The notes under the pieces are model-generated. The model made no database searches, was not told the DNA's origin, and worked only from the letters and a program-made list of their open reading frames with translations. DNA of 64,000 nt from Streptomyces mirabilis (GTDB lineage: Bacteria; Actinomycetota; Actinomycetes; Streptomycetales; Streptomycetaceae), in the NCBI RefSeq assembly GCF_018310535.1, contig NZ_CP074102.1, forward strand, positions 1,488,001-1,552,000, read 5' to 3'. The stretch's first letter is position 1. Every line of letters begins with the position of its first letter. This document shows, piece by piece, positions 3,127 to 18,750 of the stretch. Made by a program: the position numbers and the translations under genes.

Positions 3127-5301
3127 ATGGACGCGGGATTTCTGTTATCGCCGCCGTCCGCGCGCGTCTCCGATGACGTGCGCAGCCATTCCCGCAAGAC
3201 AGCAGCCGCCGTTGGCGCCCTCGCGACCGTCGCCTTCCTGGTCACCGCGCCTCCCTCTGTTGGCGCCGTTCGCCTCCGGGGCGCTCCAGCCGGCGGCCGT
3301 GACGCCACCGCCGACGTCCTCGCGGACCGGGACGTCACGCTCACCGGCGACACGGTGGTCACCGTGCCGTCCGGCACCATGACGTACGACGGGGTGTTCC
3401 GCGGCCAGGGCACCCTCACCGTGCGCGGCGGCGGCACGCTGATCCTCAACAAGGACAGCGACTTCACGCTCCCGGCGGCCCGGCAGCGGCAGAAGGTGAC
3501 CACCCAGGGCGGCAACCACCCGTACACCACCGTGAGCAACCCCGACCCGCCCGCGATCACCGTCGAGCGGGGCACCACCCTCCAGTACGGCACCGGCGGC
3601 GGCACCGGTCTGATCGGCCACTTCCCCTACAACACGCCCGGCTACCAGCTGAACCAGCTCAACGTGCGTGTCGACGGCACCCTGCGCCTCTCCCTCACCC
3701 GCACCTTCAACATCGGCACCATCAGCGGCTCGGGCCTGGTCACCCAGCCGCGCAACATGTGGGGCACCCTCGACCTGGCCGGCACCCACCCCTTCTCCGG
3801 AGTGATCGACAACGGCACCGGCATGGCGGTGGGCCGCCCCGAGTACCCGGTGGCGCTCCCGAACGCCCGCGCCGTCCTCAACCAGGGCTCCTGGATCATC
3901 GACACCCCGCTGTACCAGACGATCACCCTGCGCCAGAACTTCTACCAGCGGGCGTACGGCAGCGACGTCAACGTCCACTCGCGGCCAGGCAGCAAGGTCG
4001 TACTCACCGGCCAGTACGGCTACAGCGACCAGGGCGGCGACAACGACCCGTCGTTGAGCGACCCTGGCCTCAACTGGCGCCCCGTTCCTCACCAGTTGAA
4101 CAAGCGCGGCACCAATATCGAGGGCGCGGACGTCCAGTGGGGCGACGGGACCACCCACAAGATCTTCATGCCGGGGACGAAGGACACCGTCTACATCAAC
4201 CTGCACATGGCGAGCGGCGTCCGGTCCCGGCTGACCTTCGCCTACGACGGTCCCGTCACCCTGGGCGCGCCCATCGGCGGCGGCCGGTACCACGACACAC
4301 TCGCCGCGCCCGGCGCCGGGGACGTCGTGATCAAGGGGACACGCGGCAACGACGTGACCTTCGCGGCACAGCAGTACTACGACGGGTCGACGACCATCGA
4401 GAAGGGCGCCGTGCTGCGGCTGGGCTCGGGCGCGCGGGGCGGTGACGGCTCTCTCCTGGCCGGCACCGAGCGCAGACGGATCGTCGACAACGGCACGCTG
4501 ATCGTCCGCAACACCGCAACTCCCCTGTCACTGGCCCGTCTCGGCGGCATCGGCGGGCTCACCCAGTCCGGCGCCGCGACGACGACCCTGACGGGCGGCG
4601 AGGTGTCGTACACGGGCCCGACAACGGTCACCAAGGGCACGCTCGCCCTCGCCTCCGGCGCCACGCTCGCGCACAGCAAGGCGATCCGGCTCACCTCGGC
4701 CGACGCGCGGCTGGACGTGCGGACGACGGGACTTCGGGTGTCCACGTCCCTCAGCGGCAAGGGCACGGTACGGGGTGCGGTCGTCAACGACGGCGAGGTC
4801 GCGGGCGCCCTCACGGTGACCGGCGACTACACCCAGGGCGCGAAGGGCACGCTGGTCCTGCGCGATCGGCCCCTGAGGGTGACGGGCGCGGTCCGGCTGG
4901 CCGGGGACCTCGATCTGTCGGCCGCCGGGACCGACCCCGCCCGCGAGATCAGGGTGCTCGACCACACCGGCCGGGCGAGGACGACCGGCACCTTCTCCGG
5001 CCTGCGCGAGGGCGCCACGCTCGCGCTCGCCGACGCGACGTACCGGATCAGTTATCGCGGGGGCGACGGCAACGACGTCACTCTGAAGGCAGTGTCGAAC
5101 CATCGGACCGTGGCGGCGCCGTCCCCTGCCACGTCCGGGCTCCCGTCCGTGAAGAACTCCACCGCCGTCGGCGACAGCGAGAACGCGAACTCGTGGTGGC
5201 CGCTGCTGCTCGCACCGCTTCTGGCCACGCTCGCCGTGCCGATCGTCCGGCGGGAGCGGTCACGGCGCCGCGGCGGACGGCGGCACGCGGCCTCCCGGTG
5301 A
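3127..5301 (+). CDS. Surface-anchored protein with autotransporter-type beta-strand repeats
   Basis: A 724-residue protein with an N-terminal export segment (about residues 20-45, AAVGALATVAFLVTAPPSVG). A long Gly/Thr/Val-rich beta-solenoid follows. Repeats such as YTGPTTVTKGTLALASGA match the autotransporter-associated beta-strand repeat (PATR). The C-terminus has a single membrane helix (WWPLLLAPLLATLAVPIV) followed by an arginine-rich tail, so it is probably membrane-anchored with the solenoid outside. No Gram-negative translocator barrel is present. The ATG at 3127 was chosen because the upstream part of the open frame overlaps the lyase and galactanase genes; GTG at 3178 is an alternative. 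It may display or bind polysaccharide next to the two secreted enzymes, but no enzymatic function can be assigned. Confidence 0.72.
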   Translation: MDAGFLLSPPSARVSDDVRSHSRKTAAAVGALATVAFLVTAPPSVGAVRLRGAPAGGRDATADVLADRDVTLTGDTVVTVPSGTMTYDGVFRGQGTLTVRGGGTLILNKDSDFTLPAARQRQKVTTQGGNHPYTTVSNPDPPAITVERGTTLQYGTGGGTGLIGHFPYNTPGYQLNQLNVRVDGTLRLSLTRTFNIGTISGSGLVTQPRNMWGTLDLAGTHPFSGVIDNGTGMAVGRPEYPVALPNARAVLNQGSWIIDTPLYQTITLRQNFYQRAYGSDVNVHSRPGSKVVLTGQYGYSDQGGDNDPSLSDPGLNWRPVPHQLNKRGTNIEGADVQWGDGTTHKIFMPGTKDTVYINLHMASGVRSRLTFAYDGPVTLGAPIGGGRYHDTLAAPGAGDVVIKGTRGNDVTFAAQQYYDGSTTIEKGAVLRLGSGARGGDGSLLAGTERRRIVDNGTLIVRNTATPLSLARLGGIGGLTQSGAATTTLTGGEVSYTGPTTVTKGTLALASGATLAHSKAIRLTSADARLDVRTTGLRVSTSLSGKGTVRGAVVNDGEVAGALTVTGDYTQGAKGTLVLRDRPLRVTGAVRLAGDLDLSAAGTDPAREIRVLDHTGRARTTGTFSGLREGATLALADATYRISYRGGDGNDVTLKAVSNHRTVAAPSPATSGLPSVKNSTAVGDSENANSWWPLLLAPLLATLAVPIVRRERSRRRGGRRHAASR

Positions 5302-7747: not shown

Positions 7748-9303
7748 GCAGATCCCTCAACCGCCGGGTGTTCCTGGCGAGTTCGACGGCCGTGGCGAGC
7801 GGGGTCGCCTTGCGGACGGCCACCGCGGCGCAGGCCTCCACGACACCCCGTGTCCCCGACATCCGCGTACGCGAGGCGGCCCTCGACGACCCCACCGAGG
7901 CCACACTCACCGAGGCCGTCGTGCTCATGCGGCGCGGGAAGCTGACCTCGACGTCCCTCACCGAGGCCTACCTCGACCGGATCGAGCGGTACGACGGGAC
8001 GTATCAGGCGTACGCGGAGGTGACCGCGGACGCGGCGCTCTCGGCGGCGCGCAAGGCGGACCGGGGGCAGGGCGCCCGGGGCGTACTGCGCGGGATACCG
8101 CTCTGCATCAAGGACAACTACTTCACCCGAGGCGTGCCGACGCGCTGCAACTCCTCCATCTTCGAGGACTTCGTGCCGGACGAGGACGCGACGGCCGTGG
8201 CCCGGCTGAAGGCGGCCGGCGGGATCGTGCTCGGCAAGGGGCAGATGGGCCCGCTGGCCACCACCCGGGCGACGAAGCCGAACGGGACGGTGACCACGGT
8301 CAACGCGTGGACGCCCGGGGACCCGGGCGTCGACCCGGGCGGTTCCTCGACCGGGCCGGCCTGTTCGGTCGCCGGGCGCATGGCGGCGTCCTCGATCGGC
8401 ACCCAGACCGGCGGCTCCATCGTGCTGCCCTCCAACCAACAGAACCTGACCGGTCTGAAGCCGACCATGGGCCGGGTGTCCATCCACGGCGTCATCCCGC
8501 TGTCCTTCACCCGCGACCACTCGGGCCCGCTCGCCCGCGACGCCATGGACGCGGCGCTCATGCTCCAGGTCATGGCCGGTCCCGACGCGAAGGACCCGCG
8601 CACGCTGGGACTTCCGGCCGTGCCCGATCTCGTACGGGCCGCCACGCCCGTTCTCTCGCGCGGCGGGGCCCCGCGGATGCGCCGGGCCACCCGGATCGGG
8701 GTGCCGTCGGACTTCCTGACCGCGCAGAAGGAGCTGCGCACCGCCCTCCTGAACCAGCTGGACGCCATGCCCGGTGTCACCCTCGTCGACATCGCCTACC
8801 CCGCCGACTGGACCCTCCTGACCGGCACCTTCAACGCGGCCCGGCTCGCCGAGCGCACCGAGCCGTTCCGGCACTGGCTGCGCGAGGACCCGGCCAAGTT
8901 CGGTGTCTCGCTGCTGAGTTGGCTCCAGGGGCTGATGCTCTCGGGCGACGAGTGGATCACTGCCCAGCGCGCCAAGAACCATCTGCTGCGGGAGGTCCTG
9001 GACGGGGTCATGAACCGCTGCGACGTGCTCCTGCAGACCGGCCCCGTCCCCTTCGACATCCTGGGGCTGCCCGAGATCGCGTTCCCCATCGGCTTCGACG
9101 CGGGCGGGGTGCCGGTGGGGGCGATCCTCGGCGGGCAGCCCTACGAGGAGGACCGGCTGCTGGAGGTCGCCGCCGCGTATCAGGCGGTCACCGACTGGCA
9201 CACGCGGCGGCCCGCCGACCCGGTCCCGGCCGCCGCGCGTCTCAAGGCCGTGATCGCGCGCCCCCGGCTCTCGGCGGAAGAGGTGGCCACGAGCTCGGCC
9301 TGA
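7744..9303 (+). CDS. Tat-exported amidase-signature hydrolase
   Basis: A 519-residue amidase-signature enzyme. A twin-arginine leader (SLNRRVFLASS, residues 4-14) directs folded export. The Lys-cisSer-Ser triad is visible as K123 (CIKDNY), S201 (GGSSTG) and S225 (QTGGSIVLPS). The 24-residue spacing between the serines is that of the family. It hydrolyses amide bonds, with unknown substrate. The start overlaps the stop of the small upstream protein by ATGA. The 3' end overlaps the convergent esterase gene by 62 bases. Export of this enzyme from a pair whose partner has no signal is odd and may mean the partner acts only before export. Confidence 0.85.
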   Translation: MSRSLNRRVFLASSTAVASGVALRTATAAQASTTPRVPDIRVREAALDDPTEATLTEAVVLMRRGKLTSTSLTEAYLDRIERYDGTYQAYAEVTADAALSAARKADRGQGARGVLRGIPLCIKDNYFTRGVPTRCNSSIFEDFVPDEDATAVARLKAAGGIVLGKGQMGPLATTRATKPNGTVTTVNAWTPGDPGVDPGGSSTGPACSVAGRMAASSIGTQTGGSIVLPSNQQNLTGLKPTMGRVSIHGVIPLSFTRDHSGPLARDAMDAALMLQVMAGPDAKDPRTLGLPAVPDLVRAATPVLSRGGAPRMRRATRIGVPSDFLTAQKELRTALLNQLDAMPGVTLVDIAYPADWTLLTGTFNAARLAERTEPFRHWLREDPAKFGVSLLSWLQGLMLSGDEWITAQRAKNHLLREVLDGVMNRCDVLLQTGPVPFDILGLPEIAFPIGFDAGGVPVGAILGGQPYEEDRLLEVAAAYQAVTDWHTRRPADPVPAAARLKAVIARPRLSAEEVATSSA

Positions 9304-10879
9304 CGGCCATGACCCGGCGGGGTCGGCGCGGGCGTGACGAAGGGGTGGACTCCGGGGAGCTGAGCGGCGCACCGGGCCTCCCCGACTCGGCGTCCCACAG
9401 CGCCAGTTCACGGTCGCGTGGTCCGAGTACGGTGTGCGGTGCGCCCGCGCCGAAGATCCGGACCGGGTGCGAGGCGTCCCAGGCATGCCAGCCCGGGTCA
9501 CCCTCGACCGCGAACCGCACCCACGCAGCGTGCATCGCGTCGGCCAGTTCCTGCGGGGCGCCCGGGCCCGCGAGCTGCGCCGCCTGGGGCACCTTCACGG
9601 TGTCGAAGACGAAGCCGAGTTCCAGGGCGTGGCAGGCACCGAGGCCGGGCACGTTGGAGGGCCAGGTGAACTCGTAGACGTAGGCGGGTGTCCGCGGTGG
9701 ACGGGCGTCGGCGAGCCGGTGCAGCGGCACCCGCAGCAGATGGTCGGTGACCATCTGCCCGACGAGGTCCGCGGTGCCCGCCTCCGGGTGGATCGCGCGA
9801 TAGCCGCGGAGCACCTCGTGGCCGCAGCGGCAGCGGGCCATGGCGCCGGCCAGGGCGACGGGACCGAGCCGGTCGACACGCTCCAGCAGACCTCCCGGGG
9901 CCAGCCACAGCCGGTACTCCTCGCTGGTCCACCCCAGCAGCAGTTCGACGTCGGGCGCGCCGCCCGCGCCGCCTGCGACAAGCGCCTCCATCGGGTCGCG
10001 CGGGACGAGGTCGCCGTCGACGACGATCCCGAAGGCCGGCCCGCCGAGGACCGGGCTGCTGAGCCTGGCCACGTCGGCCTGGGTGCGCAGCAGCAGCGCG
10101 CGGTCCACGGCGGCGAACGCCCGCGCCGTCGCCGGGACCTTCAGCCGGGTGGCCATCCTGCGCACCATGCGCCGCACCTTGTCGCGCTCGCTCGCCTCCG
10201 GCGGTCCGCTCTGCAGGACGGCCCGCCGGAACAGCCCCCGGGCGCGCGGACTGGCCAGCAGCGCCCCGATGCTGATGGCCCCGGCCGACTCACCGAACAC
10301 GGTCACCCGGTCCGGGTCGCCGCCGAACCGCGCGATCGACTCCCGTACCCACTCCAGCGCGGCGAGCTGGTCGCGCAGCCCGGCGTTGGGCGGCGCGTCC
10401 GGGAAGAGGCCGTAACCCTCCACACCCAGCCGGTAGTTGATCGAGACGAGGACGACACCGTCCCGGGCGAAGGCGTGGCCGTCGTAGACGGGCACGGCCG
10501 ACGAGCCGCGGGTCAGGGCGCCGCCGTGGATCCACACCATGACGGGCAGCCGGGCGCCGGGGCCGGGTTCCGGTGTCCAGACGTTCAGGTTGAGGCAGTC
10601 GTCGCCGGGGACCACGGGGTCGGCGAGGAGTCGTGCGAACGCCTCGGAGTAGGGCGGCTTGGGCGGCGTCGGCCCGAACTCCCCCGCGTCGCGCACACCG
10701 TCCCAGGGCTCGGGCGGGACGGGTGGCCGGAAGCGGCGGGCGCCGAACGGCGGGGCCGCGTAGGGGATGCCACGGAACACGGCGATCCCGTCCTCGTACC
10801 GGCCGCGCACCGCTCCGTAGGGAGTGGTGACCACCGGGTCGTGCGTCTGTGGAACCGAGTCCACCGCGTCCACTGCCAT
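9242..10879 (-). CDS. Type-B carboxylesterase/lipase
   Basis: A 545-residue alpha/beta hydrolase of the carboxylesterase type B family. The nucleophile elbow is FGESAGA with S198. The oxyanion-hole HGG lies at residues 118-120, and the family marker DCLNLNVWTPE at 94-104. The likely catalytic His is in GACHALELGF. No signal peptide is seen, so it is probably cytosolic. The last ~60 bases overlap the end of the convergent amidase. The C-terminal 45 residues are Arg/Pro-rich and probably not part of the fold, so the ancestral stop may have been lost. A closely related, inactivated copy lies at 17172-18646. Confidence 0.87.
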   Translation of the reverse strand: MAVDAVDSVPQTHDPVVTTPYGAVRGRYEDGIAVFRGIPYAAPPFGARRFRPPVPPEPWDGVRDAGEFGPTPPKPPYSEAFARLLADPVVPGDDCLNLNVWTPEPGPGARLPVMVWIHGGALTRGSSAVPVYDGHAFARDGVVLVSINYRLGVEGYGLFPDAPPNAGLRDQLAALEWVRESIARFGGDPDRVTVFGESAGAISIGALLASPRARGLFRRAVLQSGPPEASERDKVRRMVRRMATRLKVPATARAFAAVDRALLLRTQADVARLSSPVLGGPAFGIVVDGDLVPRDPMEALVAGGAGGAPDVELLLGWTSEEYRLWLAPGGLLERVDRLGPVALAGAMARCRCGHEVLRGYRAIHPEAGTADLVGQMVTDHLLRVPLHRLADARPPRTPAYVYEFTWPSNVPGLGACHALELGFVFDTVKVPQAAQLAGPGAPQELADAMHAAWVRFAVEGDPGWHAWDASHPVRIFGAGAPHTVLGPRDRELALWDAESGRPGAPLSSPESTPSSRPRRPRRVMAVRPSSWPPLPPRAGGARSRP

Positions 10880-10969: not shown

Positions 10970-12301
10970 TCAGGCGAGGCCGAACCAGCCCAGGACGGTC
11001 TGGACGAGGAGGACGGTGGACATGGCGGCCACACCGACGACCACGGTGGTGGCGGCGACGCGGTAGCGCGGGCTGTTGGCCGCGGGGCCGAGCAGGGAGC
11101 GGCGGTTGGTGAGGACCAGCAGGTAGACGAGGACGACGGGGCTGATCAGGCCCTGGAGGACCTGGGTGCCGATCAGCAGCTGGATGACGTTGACGGGGGT
11201 GAGGGCGACGGTGGCGCCGAGGGCGATCTGGGCGGTGAACAGTCCCAGGAACAGCGGGGCGTCACGGAAGCTGCGGGAGACCGAGCGCTCCACGCCCGCG
11301 GCCTCGCCGACCGCGTAGCTCGCGGACAGCGGGACCACGGCTCCGGCGAGGGCCGAGGCGCCGATCAGGCCGAGGGCGAAGAGCAGTTCGGCGCTCTGTC
11401 CCGCGACCGGTTCGAGGGCCTTGGCGGCCTCGGCGGCGGAGGTGAGCGGTCCGGTGCCGCCGATGGCCGAGGCGGTGGCGATGATGATGGTCAGGCTGAT
11501 GACGCAGGCGAAGACCGCGCCGAGGATCGCGTCGGCCCGGATCAGGGGGTAGTCCTCGGGCTTGGCGCCGCGGTCCACGACACCCGCGGCGGCGTAGAAC
11601 TGCATGTAGGGGCTGACGGTGGTGCCGATCAGCGCGACCGCGAGCAGGATGAAGGCCTTGCTGCCCGCCATGTGGGGAAGCACCAGGTGGGAGCCGACCT
11701 GGCCCCAGTGCGGGTGGCCGAGGATCATCGCGACGGGGTAGGTGAAGAAGGCCAGCGACATGATCAGGAAGATACGTTCGGCCCAGCGGTAGGAGCCGAA
11801 CAGGACGAGCGACCACAGCAGGATGGCGGCCGGGGGGATGACGGCCCACTTGGGGACGCCGAGGAGTTCGAAGGCGGCGCCGATGCCCGCGAACTCGCTC
11901 ACGACCAGACCGGTGTTGGCCAGCAGCAGACAGCACACGGCGAGCGCGGTGAGGCGCAGGCTGAACTGTTCGCGGATCAGCGCGCCGAGGCCCTTGCCGG
12001 TGTACGCGCCGAGCCGTACCGCCATCTCCTGGACCATGACCAGGGCGACGGTCACCAACACCATGAAGAACAGCGTGCCGTAGGCGAACTGGGCGCCCGC
12101 GGAGGCGTACGTGGCGATGCCGGCGGCGTCGTTGCCCGCGTTCGCGGCGACCAGACCGGGCCCCGCGACCGTCGCGACAACGGCCAGGCGCCGCAGGCCC
12201 TTGCGGCCGACGGGGGACCTGGTGACCGCCTCGACGGGGGCGGCGGCATCGACGGGGACGACTGCCTCGACGGGGGCGGCGGCATCGAGTTCGCGGGTCA
12301 C
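10970..12301 (-). CDS. NRAMP-family metal transporter with altered metal motifs (possible Mg2+ type)
   Basis: A 443-residue membrane protein with about 11 helices and the NRAMP fold signature (GPGLVAANAGNDAAGIATYA). In classical Mn2+/Fe2+ NRAMPs the two broken helices carry DPGN and MPH. Here they read DAAG (D58-G61) and SPY (S230-Y232), so the Asn and the Met ligands are gone. Loss of the Met is a feature of NRAMP-related magnesium transporters, and the neighbouring gene encodes an MgtE_N/CBS protein; Mg2+ transport is therefore my inference. The start overlaps the stop of that gene by 4 bases. The N-terminus carries a repeated AAPVEAVVPVD segment from a 36-bp tandem duplication near 12228-12288. 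Confidence 0.85.
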   Translation of the reverse strand: MTRELDAAAPVEAVVPVDAAAPVEAVTRSPVGRKGLRRLAVVATVAGPGLVAANAGNDAAGIATYASAGAQFAYGTLFFMVLVTVALVMVQEMAVRLGAYTGKGLGALIREQFSLRLTALAVCCLLLANTGLVVSEFAGIGAAFELLGVPKWAVIPPAAILLWSLVLFGSYRWAERIFLIMSLAFFTYPVAMILGHPHWGQVGSHLVLPHMAGSKAFILLAVALIGTTVSPYMQFYAAAGVVDRGAKPEDYPLIRADAILGAVFACVISLTIIIATASAIGGTGPLTSAAEAAKALEPVAGQSAELLFALGLIGASALAGAVVPLSASYAVGEAAGVERSVSRSFRDAPLFLGLFTAQIALGATVALTPVNVIQLLIGTQVLQGLISPVVLVYLLVLTNRRSLLGPAANSPRYRVAATTVVVGVAAMSTVLLVQTVLGWFGLA

Positions 12302-13665
12302 TGCAGGAACCTCCGGAAGTGCAGCCGGCCGCGCTCGGGCAGCACGGCGTCGAGGATGTCGTCGGCCAGGATCCGGCCGAGCGGGCGCTCGGCGTCGTCC
12401 ACGACGAGGAGCGAGGAGGCGCGGGCGGCGACGAGCTGGTCGGCGGCCTCGGCCAGGCGGGTGTCGGGGCGTACGACGGCGGGCGGCCCGAACTGGGCCA
12501 GCCAGACCACCAGATCGGCCACCGTGGCGGTGTCGTCGGCCACCGCCACGTCGAACAGGGAGATGTCGCCGATCAGGCGGCCGTCGTCGTCGAGCACCGC
12601 GACCGCGTCGATCTCGGTACGGTGCTCGGCCTCGGCGGCCAGAGCCGCCCGTACCTGGGCGATGGTCCGGTCCTTCGTCGTGGTGATCAGCACGGTCGTC
12701 ATCGCGCCGCCCGCGGTGCCCTCACGGTGGGTCAGCAGTCTCCGCAGCTCGGCCGCCTCGGCGGTGGGCATGCGCGTGAGCAGGGTCTCGCGTTCGTCGG
12801 GGGTGAGGTCGCGCAGGGCGTCGGCGGCCTCGTCCGGTTCCATCTCGTCCACCAGCCGGGCGGCGTGCTCGGGGCGGGCCTCGCGCAGCAGGTTCTCCAG
12901 CTCGGCCGGTTCCATCTCCTCCAGGGCGTCGGCGGCCTGCTCCGGCTCCAGCCAGCCCAGCAGTTGCTGGCGCTCGCTGCGGCCGAGGTCCTCGAGGATG
13001 TCGGCGAGGTCGGCCGGGCGCAGCCGGTGCAACGCGGAGCGGGAGGCGCGCAGCCGTACCTCGGCGGGGCCGTCGGTGGCCTGCTCGGCGAACGGCGCCA
13101 CGGACTGCCAGTCCAGCACCCGTTCCGGGGTCGGCCTGGCCTGCCAGCGGCGCGGGCCCAGCCGCCGCAGCAGGGTCGGCAGGGAGACGTCCACACCGAC
13201 CAGCACCACCTTGTCGACGAGCGGTGCGAGGTACAGGTCGGCGGCCCGGGTGACCTGCACGCCGTCCACGTCGACGAGTTGGTGGTCCAGTACGTCCCGG
13301 GCGAGCAGCACCTCACCGGGGCGGCGGGCGAAGTCGCGCAGGTCCACGCGCGCGGACCGCAGCCGCACATGACCGGCGTGCACCTTCTCCAGCGCGTCCG
13401 CGGGCAGGAACGCCCGCCGTCGGCCGATACGGATGATCAGGCCGGTGACCGGCGGGTACGGCTCGGGTCCGTAGAGCCGGGCGACCACGTCCACGACGCG
13501 GCCGACCTCCTCGCCGGCCTGGTGGGTGACCGGGGCGCCGATCAGCCCGGCCAGCGAGACGAGGGAGGCGCGGACCGCCCTGGAGGCGGTGGCGCGGCGT
13601 TCCAGATGGACTCTGCGGTCGCGCAGGCGGGCCGTGGTGGACATGAGCCGAGTGTTGGCGGCCAA
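12298..13665 (-). CDS. Magnesium-sensor-like protein: PRC-barrel, MgtE N-terminal and paired CBS domains
   Basis: A 455-residue soluble protein. The N-terminal ~180 residues contain PRC-barrel-like segments (EEVGRVVDVVARLYGP). An MgtE_N superhelical domain follows, with repeats such as LEPEQAADALEEMEPAELEN. Two CBS motifs end the protein (IDAVAVLDDDGRLIGDIS and SLLVVDDAERPLGRILADD). It lacks the MgtE membrane channel. In MgtE these cytosolic domains bind Mg2+ and close the pore; here they would have to act in trans, plausibly on the overlapping NRAMP-like transporter. TTG at 13665 was chosen because GGGGGTG lies at suitable distance; GTG 13674 and ATG 13644 are alternatives. Confidence 0.82.
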   Translation of the reverse strand: MAANTRLMSTTARLRDRRVHLERRATASRAVRASLVSLAGLIGAPVTHQAGEEVGRVVDVVARLYGPEPYPPVTGLIIRIGRRRAFLPADALEKVHAGHVRLRSARVDLRDFARRPGEVLLARDVLDHQLVDVDGVQVTRAADLYLAPLVDKVVLVGVDVSLPTLLRRLGPRRWQARPTPERVLDWQSVAPFAEQATDGPAEVRLRASRSALHRLRPADLADILEDLGRSERQQLLGWLEPEQAADALEEMEPAELENLLREARPEHAARLVDEMEPDEAADALRDLTPDERETLLTRMPTAEAAELRRLLTHREGTAGGAMTTVLITTTKDRTIAQVRAALAAEAEHRTEIDAVAVLDDDGRLIGDISLFDVAVADDTATVADLVVWLAQFGPPAVVRPDTRLAEAADQLVAARASSLLVVDDAERPLGRILADDILDAVLPERGRLHFRRFLQ

Positions 13666-13834
13666 GGTGAACACCCCCTGGCCCCGGCATGGCGGGGCGG
13701 CAGGGCGGCACGGGACGGCACTCCCCCGGTGACCGGCGGCGTCGGACCGCACGCACACACCACGACGTCCCGCTGGGCACGGGCCGGGCGGGTACGGCCG
13801 ACAGCGGACACGGCGCGGACCGCGGGGTACCGCG

Positions 13835-13948
13835 TCAGCCGGACGGGGCGGGGAGGGGCTGTCCCGGGCCGCGGAAGGACGGCGAGAAGAACGAGGACAA
13901 CGCGGACAACGCGGGCAGGGGCCGACTATGGCCCGGACTACTGTCCAT
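13835..13948 (-). CDS. Putative proline/serine-rich leader peptide of the magnesium-type operon
   Basis: A 37-codon ORF begins with ATG at 13948, preceded by a very strong ribosome binding site (GGGAGGAGGC, 13952-13961). The peptide starts MDSSPGHSRPLPALSALSS and ends GPGQPLPAPSG. It contains 8 prolines, several as PxP, and about 10 serines. It ends 169 bases before the start of the MgtE_N/CBS gene on the same strand. Proline-coded leader peptides are known to sense Mg2+ in enterobacteria (mgtL). The same role here is inference from position and composition. Chance ORFs are common in GC-rich DNA, so the main support is the ribosome binding site. Confidence 0.45.
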   Translation of the reverse strand: MDSSPGHSRPLPALSALSSFFSPSFRGPGQPLPAPSG

Positions 13949-14177
13949 CACGCCTCCTCCCGGTCCACGCACGTGCGGACGCCTCATCGAACGAGGTGTC
14001 CCGTCAAACCGTGGCAAGACTACGTCTCCGCCGCCCCGGTCCCCGCCTTCATGACCAGCCCTTGACCGCATCCCTGTCGGGCTCCTACCTGCGGGGGATG
14101 TCGTACCGGGCACGAATTGGTTGCGGCCCGGACTTCCCACGGCGGCGGGCGGCGGCACTGCGGCAGCATGACAGCCC
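13949..14177. promoter_or_regulatory. Divergent promoter region between the leader ORF and the acyltransferase gene
   Basis: On the plus strand TTGACC (14062-14067) and TACCTG (14086-14091), 18 bases apart, form a weak candidate promoter for the acyltransferase. On the minus strand a TTGACG box (14002-14007) lies upstream of the leader ORF but lacks a clear -10 box. I see no recognisable riboswitch, and no long ORF here looks coding. Confidence 0.35.
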
Positions 14178-16050: not shown

Positions 16051-17124
16051 ATGACGAGGAAGAGCATCACGGACGCCGGGAGCCGGCGCACGATCCGGGA
16101 CGTAGCGGCCCGCGCGGGGGTGTCCGCGTCGACGGTGTCGCGGGTGCTCGGCGGCGATTACCCGGTGAGCACGGCGACGCGTACCCGGGTGATGCGGGCG
16201 GTCCGTGAGCTGGACTATGTGGCCGACGCCCGCGCCAAGGCGATCGCCGGGGCCGGCACACCGACGCTCGCGTTCGTCCTCGAGGACATCACCGGGCCGT
16301 CGTTCGCGCACATGGCGCACGGCGTGGAGCGCGAGGCGACCCGGCTCGGCCATCTGTGCTTGGTGTGCAGCACGGACGGCGATGCCGAACACGAGCTGGA
16401 GTTCATCGAGATGATGCGCGCCCAGCGGGCCGCCGCGGTGATCCTGGTCGGCGGTGCCACGGACACCGCGGAGTACCGTGCGCGGATGGCCCGCATCGCC
16501 GACTCCCTCGCGTCGGCCGGGTCACGGCTCGTCCTGTGCGGGCGGCCACCGCTGGACCCTGGCACGCCGGTGACGGTCATCGAGTACGACAACGAGGGCG
16601 GAGCCTACGCCCTGTGCGCGCACGTCCTCGCCCAGGGTCACCGGCGGGTCCTGTTTCTCGGGGGCAAGCCGGACAGCACCACGGCCCTGGGCCGCGAGCG
16701 CGGTTACCTCGCCGCTCACCGGGCACGCGGCCTCGAACCCGACCCGGCGCTGCGTCCGACCGGCGACTTCACCCGCGACTCGGGCCACCGCCTGATGCGC
16801 CGGGCGCTGGAGCAGGACCTGGACTTCACGGCGGTGATGGCCTCCACCGACATGGTCGCCTCTGGCGCCCTGACCGCCCTGCACGAGGCGGGTCTGCGCG
16901 TCCCGGCCGACGTCTCCCTCGTCGGCTACGACGACATCCCCTTCGCCCGCGACCTCCACCCCCCGCTGACGACGGTCCACGTCCCCTACGAGGAACTGGG
17001 CCGCCTGGCTGTCCGCACCGCCCTGGGCCGCACGCCGGATGCCCCGAACGAACACCTTCTCCTGGGGACACATGTAGTGGTGCGCGACTCTGTGGCGGGG
17101 CCAGCGGGTGGGGCCCGCCGATAG
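16051..17124 (+). CDS. LacI-family transcriptional repressor
   Basis: A 357-residue repressor. The N-terminal helix-turn-helix and hinge read TIRDVAARAGVSASTVSRVL then YPVSTATRTRVMRAVRELDY. A periplasmic-binding-protein-like sugar sensor follows, ending THVVVRDSV. It is closely related to the LacI at 30739, with shared blocks EYDNEGGAYA, FTAVMASTDMVASGA and VGYDDIPFA. The operator AACCGGTT lies upstream of this gene and of the uronate-oligosaccharide operon, so it may repress that operon and itself; this is inference. It sits where the amidase would be in the decayed second copy of the 7.4-10.9 kb block, so its insertion there was probably secondary. Confidence 0.88.
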   Translation: MTRKSITDAGSRRTIRDVAARAGVSASTVSRVLGGDYPVSTATRTRVMRAVRELDYVADARAKAIAGAGTPTLAFVLEDITGPSFAHMAHGVEREATRLGHLCLVCSTDGDAEHELEFIEMMRAQRAAAVILVGGATDTAEYRARMARIADSLASAGSRLVLCGRPPLDPGTPVTVIEYDNEGGAYALCAHVLAQGHRRVLFLGGKPDSTTALGRERGYLAAHRARGLEPDPALRPTGDFTRDSGHRLMRRALEQDLDFTAVMASTDMVASGALTALHEAGLRVPADVSLVGYDDIPFARDLHPPLTTVHVPYEELGRLAVRTALGRTPDAPNEHLLLGTHVVVRDSVAGPAGGARR

Positions 17125-17135
17125 AAACCGGTTGC
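17124..17135. promoter_or_regulatory. Second AACCGGTT operator-like site
   Basis: GAAACCGGTTGC starts on the last base of the lacI stop codon. It could be an auxiliary site for looping, or a relic of the promoter of a lost downstream gene. Confidence 0.45.
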
Positions 17136-17171
17136 GGCACGTGGGCGAACCGGCAGAGGGGCGCGCTGCGG

Positions 17172-18646
<1,475 letters not shown>

Positions 18647-18750
18647 CCGACCACCAGTTCCTCGCCCCTCGCGAACGGTTCACATCAGAGCATCACATCA
18701 CCTCCGGCCATTCCTGCGGACGTCCCTGACGGGCGGACTTCCGGACGTCC

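Follow-up and report, generated by a model that had tools for sequence, protein, structure and literature searches.

The 64,000-nucleotide window analyzed here (Streptomyces mirabilis, assembly GCF_018310535.1, contig NZ_CP074102.1, positions 1,488,001 to 1,552,000) carries on its minus strand an operon that begins with a short leader open reading frame (ORF) and continues with a gene for a soluble PRC-like/MgtE_N/CBS protein, the sensor, and a gene for an NRAMP-like transporter. The gene pair is known already, and the leader is the interesting part. From sequence comparisons, we lean toward the view that the leader belongs to a widespread actinobacterial class of cis-acting, Mg2+-linked leaders and that the one in the window acts without a riboswitch. 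Members of the class would be short ORFs that initiate strongly and have AGU serine codons near the start, many of them lying between an M-box, a Mg2+ riboswitch, and a Mg2+-related gene. Alignments indicate that most of the M-box is deleted in the S. mirabilis operon and that the leader is retained. The wide occurrence of such leaders, their rare-codon signature, and the loss of the riboswitch with retention of the leader together argue for a cis-acting function at the level of codons.

Leader ORF and M-box remnant in Streptomyces mirabilis

The head of the operon contains the following elements.

13835..13948, minus strand: leader ORF of 37 codons behind a Shine-Dalgarno (SD) sequence, ATG at 13948 and stop at 13835, MDSSPGHSRPLPALSALSSFFSPSFRGPGQPLPAPSG
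13953..13961, minus strand: leader SD sequence, GGGAGGAGG
13937..13942, minus strand: AGT codons 3 and 4 of the leader
13925..13927, minus strand: AGT codon 8 of the leader
13978..14000, minus strand: 23-base remnant of the 5′ part of the M-box, GACACCTCGTTCGATGAGGCGTC, recognized by alignment with intact M-boxes
14050..14067, minus strand: GGTCA-N6-GGTCA direct repeat upstream of the leader, a candidate regulator or promoter element

Seventeen of 392 genomes, our own included, carry an orthologue of the transporter at 85% identity or more. An SD-led leader ORF precedes the operon in all 17 intact congeneric orthologues, and its start reads [MVL]DSSPGHSRP. When we searched the same 392 genomes with a 24-base core of the leader, allowing three mismatches, exactly those 17 were matched, once each; the reversed pattern gave one match in each of two genomes. 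The SD sequence is the same in 16/17 orthologues (L102 has GGAAGGAGG), and the start codons interchange among ATG, GTG, and TTG. Across codons 2 to 10, only three columns vary, all of them at synonymous third positions (P5, H7, and R9), and codons 3, 4, and 8 are AGT, AGU in the mRNA, in 17/17. None of the 37 serine codons of the two operon genes is AGT. On both strands of the window, we counted 92 SD-led short ORFs (the leader entering twice, with two start codons), and the leader, with three, is the only one that has at least two AGT codons within codons 2 to 10.

The initial annotation had pointed to a leader with eight prolines and a strong SD sequence. Both are there, and conservation in the 17 congeneric orthologues suggests that the ORF is translated in S. 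mirabilis. The idea that proline is the sensing feature did not survive the comparison. The window’s leader, which is 37 amino acids (aa) long and, when aligned, shows an in-frame insert of 18 bases, has eight prolines, and the other orthologues (28 to 29 codons) have four to six. Of these four to eight prolines, all 17 leaders share P5 and P10 and no others, so that proline content was dropped as the key; SPGHS and the three AGU codons are likewise common to all 17.

Of 16 fetched orthologues, 8 carry an intact Rfam M-box (128 to 134 bits) immediately ahead of the leader. The same holds for Kitasatospora sp. CB01950 (L206), where the M-box is followed after 74 nt by MDCSSPGHSRP and then by the operon. 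All nine of these loci have the short ORF with a strong SD sequence after the M-box; in the window, the M-box is gone. The 23 bases GACACCTCGTTCGATGAGGCGTC align to the start of the intact M-boxes in L096, L104, and L206, and long gaps follow. The window contained no match to the M-box family (RF00380) at the Rfam gathering score, nor did the remnant site at E ≤ 10, and no M-box was found in the studied genome under the stricter filters of our class-wide search. Nine of the 17 orthologues are without an intact M-box, yet all 17 have the leader, a sign that it may do something independent of the riboswitch. One locus (L101) has two intact M-boxes in divergent orientation, at 3455–3629 on the minus strand and 4043–4216 on the plus strand, one of which precedes the NRMT (NRAMP-related Mg2+ transporter) operon.

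Upstream of the leader, a GGTCA.{5,7}GGTCA repeat is found in 15/17 orthologues, including our own (L103 and L111 are the exceptions); it resembles an 11-nt direct-repeat site for a response regulator. The leader could be a passive relic, a mere output ORF of the M-box that stopped sensing Mg2+ when the M-box was lost, and the operon would then be constitutive or governed by its promoter, for instance through this repeat. The retention of the repeat and the reduction of the M-box to 23 bases in the window fit this explanation, as does the finding that in Mycobacterium tuberculosis the M-box itself controls an upstream ORF (uORF) (PMC12810186). We nevertheless think a relic unlikely. In the nine orthologues without an intact M-box, codons 2 to 10 change only synonymously, while the five that were aligned have diverged in the stretch separating leader from sensor, and related leaders with the AGU signature occur in operons for which a scan of 13 loci found no M-box.

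Related leaders in other actinobacteria

Those related leaders emerged from an alignment-based scan for the transporter that covered 84,980 species, each represented by a single genome, and returned 462 relatives. We took the best 80, which by their record titles are mainly Acidimicrobiia or unspecified Actinomycetota. The gene pair singled out by the initial annotation recurs in these loci, many of which also have a related leader: a sensor match lies upstream on the same strand in 79/80, and once seven loci without a sensor start or without upstream sequence were excluded, 54 of the remaining 73 had, within 350 nt, an SD-led ORF whose first 13 residues include [EDQ]-P-P-S or one of its listed variants (EPPS leaders). 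The same filter gave 0/73 on the antisense strand and 2/1460 on mononucleotide shuffles. Three further loci, L133 (DIPHS) and, further upstream, L200 (EPPS) and L206 (SPGHS), raise the count to 57/73.

Although the EPPS leaders were chosen by peptide and not by codon, the motif serine is AGT in 53/54, and in L212, the exception, the next serine is AGT. Counting that serine, the AGT is codon 8 in 47/54, the number that it also has in the window, and codon 7 in 7/54. As background, the sensor genes at these loci use AGT for 49 of their 1,091 serines. The first-position proline (L134–L212) is CCC or CCT in 50/50, compared with 501 of 1,138 proline codons in the sensor genes. A frame-free search for the strict EPPS motif found an in-frame NTG start 12 nt (42 cases) or 9 nt (4 cases) upstream in 46/46. 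Among 296 genomes of the class of genome G492, the strict DNA pattern gave 19 matches in 18 genomes (reversed control, 3); 15 stand directly before a sensor gene, one before an NRAMP-like ORF without a sensor (L213), and three elsewhere. No M-box was found in the 13 EPPS loci scanned. In other NRMT subfamilies, leaders were present in L213 and, behind an M-box, in L124, and the EPPS/SPGHS/PHS peptide filter found none in 12 sensor-bearing loci of the 35% and 40% NRMT groups or in L107 and L108. M-boxes precede four of 18 further NRMT loci scanned, namely L124, whose leader is of the AGU kind, and L125–L127, which have none.

Two side observations concern these loci. L176, L191, and L209, two of them metagenome-assembled genomes (MAGs) titled Saccharibacteria, share an element GATCGTGCGC...GGGTGGGCGCGCACGAA ahead of the sensor gene; no Rfam family matches it at the gathering score, and it may be an RNA element of its own. 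L138, L139, L170, and L187 are titled Bifidobacterium breve; their operons are close to those of other actinobacterial MAGs (L113 and L117), and the titles look wrong.

Starting from the riboswitch, M-box searches yielded 9 M-boxes in 5 of 148 genomes of the class; in a single family, 55 of 201 genomes had M-boxes, 83 in total. Seven are shared between the two sets, giving 85 distinct M-boxes. For 68/85, an SD-led ORF of 8 to 60 aa with an AGT in codons 2 to 12 follows within 260 nt, and 47 have at least two AGT codons; controls gave 0/85 for the antisense strand and 1/85 and 0/83 for shifted windows. Serine codons within codons 2 to 10 of the 68 ORFs are AGT in 134/190 cases and later serine codons in 8/153. 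Part of this excess is by construction, because the ORFs were chosen for an AGT, and after removal of one AGT per ORF, at least 66 of 122 early serine codons are still AGT. The M-box-linked leaders include MSPGDSPY, MPSGDSPYS, and V-D-[DE]-P-P-S-R types, the last being the EPPS type behind an M-box, and L279 has MDSSPGHSWP, nearly the window’s own leader. In many of them, AGT codons stand at 12-nt spacing. Among 18 proteins taken from chosen loci of the 85, the genes behind M-box and leader encode Nramp, CorA, a MgtE_N sensor, a P-type ATPase, MgtC, PPE, and an ABC permease, with a tRNA synthetase farther along; from M-box loci that lack a leader came a P-type ATPase and a Stealth protein.

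Two other explanations bear on what these leaders have in common. The peptide could be a small protein acting in trans, for example, by regulating the transporter or forming one of its subunits, an option also proposed for mycobacterial uORF2 (PMC12810186). Its N-terminal residues are indeed conserved within each leader type, but M-box-linked leaders range from 18 to 44 codons with a little-conserved C terminus, such leaders precede unrelated transporters, and the strongest constraint falls on a codon (AGU), not on an amino acid alone; we consider a trans-acting peptide improbable. That constraint at the nucleotide level, the CCC/CCT first proline in all 50 EPPS-set leaders having a proline there, the 12-nt spacing, and the absence of a third-position excess over the whole leader would suit an AGU stretch that serves as an RNA motif, either as a binding site for a protein or RNA or within a fold, with the ORF incidental. 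The conserved SD sequence with its interchangeable start codons, the strict motif being in frame with the start in 46/46, the purely synonymous changes in codons 2 to 10, and the lack of a consensus fold among 44 leaders make an RNA motif improbable as well.

A possible cis mechanism and its precedents

The SD sequence, start codon, and early AGU recur but C terminus, length, and downstream RNA vary, which points to an effect of translating the first codons and not to the protein product. Mg2+ is suggested as the signal by the M-box, the types of transporter, and the analogy with MgtL. A cis-acting leader of this kind would initiate ribosomes strongly, and their progress over the first codons would depend on Mg2+ or the state of translation. 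Slow decoding or drop-off there would be felt by Rho, setting whether the downstream mRNA is continued, or by the next ribosome binding site, setting whether it is opened for translation. Ribosomes that are slow on the leader or abandon it at low Mg2+ would favor the operon, and when Mg2+ is plentiful, the partner protein would throttle the transporter. We infer the Mg2+ response, the action in cis, the direction of the switch, and the gating of the transporter in trans by its partner.

A wider proposal, which we regard as possible though doubtful, is that AGU-rich leaders throughout the phylum Actinomycetota act as autonomous translation sensors responsive to Mg2+, whether or not an M-box is present, and do so before several unrelated classes of Mg2+ transporter. 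The M-box would then be one input and the leader the constant part, and the window would be a natural riboswitch deletion. If true, an autonomous leader sensor would give mycobacterial uORF2 its missing function, in cis.

The closest precedent is mycobacterial. According to D’Halluin et al. 2026 (PMC12810186), the pe20 M-box of M. tuberculosis acts with Rho to control a conserved uORF at the level of translation; the uORF2 peptide has a conserved proline at position 7 and is called specific for mycobacteria, and its role is left open. From their M-box, their PPE genes (L239 and L240), and their Pro7, we infer that L239–L242 are mycobacterial uORF2. Like uORF2/Rv1805A, the leader in question is a short ORF with a strong SD sequence that lies, in some orthologues, downstream of an M-box, and in the searched family, the leaders that follow M-boxes begin with S-P-G-[DH]-S or similar and carry AGT codons. 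Unlike it, the window’s leader is nonmycobacterial, stands before an NRMT operon, and has no intact M-box. We call it related to uORF2 and not a member because it has no proline at position 7. Leaders similar to uORF2 are found elsewhere among actinobacteria, where they bear a rare-codon signature and precede Mg2+-related genes that are unrelated to one another; the open-access literature, as far as its listings and abstract openings go, yielded no description of such leaders outside mycobacteria.

The enterobacterial mgtA leader MgtL offers an analogy. It too is very short and precedes the gene for a Mg2+ transporter, and models for it invoke ribosome drop-off at EPDP (PMC11282234) or m1G37-dependent proline codons (PMC6335274). 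EPPS leaders resemble the EPDP motif, and their first proline, CCC or CCT in 50/50, is as in MgtL. The differences are that no homology is shown, that AGU is the signature shared by the leaders studied here, and that the window’s leader lacks an EP pair, with only D2 and P5 near its N terminus and with P5 encoded by CCG in 15/17 orthologues.

Two further candidate keys were tried and rejected. The m1G37/CCY codon model accounts for CCC/CCT in 50/50 of the EPPS set but is not universal, because P5 is CCG in 15/17 leaders of the Streptomyces type and CCG is common in the M-box-linked DDPPS leaders. A single conserved hairpin sequestering the SD sequence is a tendency of the EPPS set (14/44, compared with 9% and 5% of 44 in control windows) and not of the Streptomyces type (2/17). 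For the 17 Streptomyces-type untranslated regions, RNAalifold predicts pairing of the leader SD sequence with the leader’s own 3′ half, but most of the paired bases hardly vary or do not vary at all.

Several observations weigh against a cis-acting leader class with a member that works without its riboswitch. Loss of the M-box could mean loss of Mg2+ control. We found no conserved RNA switch between leader and sensor, the alignment of 44 leaders gave no consensus structure with RNAalifold, and pairing that sequesters the SD sequence beyond shuffles (below the 5th percentile) was confined to 14/44 EPPS leaders and only 2/17 of the Streptomyces type. The window’s leader lacks both EPPS and the proline at position 7 of the mycobacterial peptide, having P5 and P10 instead. 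Across the first 23 codons of the Streptomyces-type leaders, counted without the window’s 18-base insert, variation is not in excess at third positions (37, 36, and 24 minor cells at the three codon positions), so that the C-terminal half is without visible protein-level selection. In the wider sets, 17/85 M-boxes have no AGT-bearing leader ORF, close relatives are frequent among the 85 loci (the 68 leaders have 51 distinct first-nine-residue starts), and in 16 of the 73 related operons, we found no leader within 1500 nt or the available upstream sequence.

Transporter and soluble partner

The body of the operon comprises two genes and a hairpin between the leader and the sensor.

12298..13665, minus strand: soluble PRC-like/MgtE_N/CBS protein, an MgtE-like fragment, 455 aa from TTG 13665, assigned from Pfam, start-codon position, structure model, and Foldseek
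13681..13698, minus strand: predicted hairpin GCCCCG/CGGGGC directly upstream of the sensor SD sequence, with arms that vary little or not at all among the 17 aligned sequences and with a putative role
10970..12301, minus strand: NRMT-like transporter, 443 aa, Pfam PF01566 (4.4e-78), nearest solved relative EleNRMT (7qia)

The layout is that of the initial annotation, down to the 4-base overlap of the transporter’s GTG start (12301) with the sensor’s stop (12298). The operon is probably a Mg2+-uptake operon with an NRMT-like transporter and an MgtE-type soluble partner, as judged from its sequence. Canonical NRAMP proteins bind metal through DPGN and MPH motifs; the initial annotation had read DAAG and SPY in their place, and both stand, the latter within TTVSPY. 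Against solved structures, the transporter matches EleNRMT (7qia, 3.6e-91) far ahead of the next, the MntH structure 8e6h (1.7e-18). The printed NRMT signature is DxxG in transmembrane segment 1 (TM1) and TxxA/T in TM6 (PMC8806188). DAAG gives DxxG instead of DxxN in TM1, and in TM6, the sequence GTTVSPY has threonine in place of alanine. At the TM6 position of the canonical methionine, where the NRMT signature has alanine or threonine, our transporter has serine and no methionine. Among the best 80 of the 462 relatives, this position is threonine in 55 (TTITPY in 54 and TTVTPY in 1) and serine in 25 (TTISPY in 20 and TTVSPY in 5).

The initial annotation’s suggestion of a Mg2+ role is supported by the NRMT-like transporter and the M-boxes upstream of its orthologues and of the Kitasatospora operon; its suggestion of an undescribed system is not. 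An NRMT with an adjacent MgtE-like fragment was described in 2014 by Shin et al. (PMC4072509), with feedback regulation by the fragment proposed. In that work, the A. capsulatum transporter, from a locus without an M-box, fully rescued a Mn2+-transport defect and rescued a Mg2+-transport defect only at low millimolar Mg2+; coexpression of the fragment gave no further rescue, and the M-box was put forward as a possible marker of Mg2+ specificity for NRMTs. By that marker, the intact M-boxes before the operon in 8/16 fetched orthologues and L206 place our transporter clade among the Mg2+ systems, which supports Mg2+ as its substrate. The operon shares with the published systems (PMC4072509; EleNRMT, PMC8806188) the transporter class, a partner gene of the same kind directly upstream, and an M-box in several orthologues, and it differs in the serine at the second TM6 position (TTVS), in the short leader ORF ahead of the operon, and in the deletion of the M-box in the window. 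Elsewhere among the orthologous loci (L106 and L109), one of the 17 genomes has a second, broken copy of the operon with two stops in the transporter gene, and another has a transporter fragment.

The soluble protein had been annotated with PRC-barrel, MgtE_N, and CBS domains. MgtE_N (3.8e-24) and CBS (1.1e-13) were borne out by Pfam, and PRC (0.053) fell below the cut-off, which it passes in the homologue of L258 (1.7e-5). An AlphaFold model from a 20-sequence alignment (mean predicted local distance difference test score, 81.5) has its best Protein Data Bank matches by Foldseek in the cytosolic part of MgtE (2oux, 2zy9, and 2yvy), making the gene adjacent to the transporter homologous to the MgtE cytosolic domain. 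Translation of the sensor probably starts at TTG 13665 (SD sequence AGGGGGTG) and not at 13758, the start of the mechanical ORF; among five orthologues, the position reads TTG, GTG, or ATG.

The studied genome (9.62 Mb) has one Nramp, two MgtE_N proteins, and seven CorA matches, one of them short, and no MgtE channel domain was found in it. Although 147 of 150 congeneric genomes have a match to the soluble protein, only four besides our own have an orthologue at 84 to 85% identity, and most other full-length matches are about 29 to 34% identical. The second MgtE_N copy of the studied genome is of this more distant kind and has no adjoining Nramp, since the genome has only one. It is an MgtE_N/CBS protein (G000:C1:2767805-2771641, L002 region) encoded about 1.7 kb downstream of a CorA gene and may be a further sensor without its own channel, paired with a Mg2+ channel. 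The sensor of the congeneric locus L108 is 96% identical to that of L197 (titled S. spiralis). On either side of the operon, at 9242–10879 and at about 16522–18654 of the minus strand, the window has two similar carboxylesterase-like genes, the second of which, inspected by eye, is apparently split into several frames.

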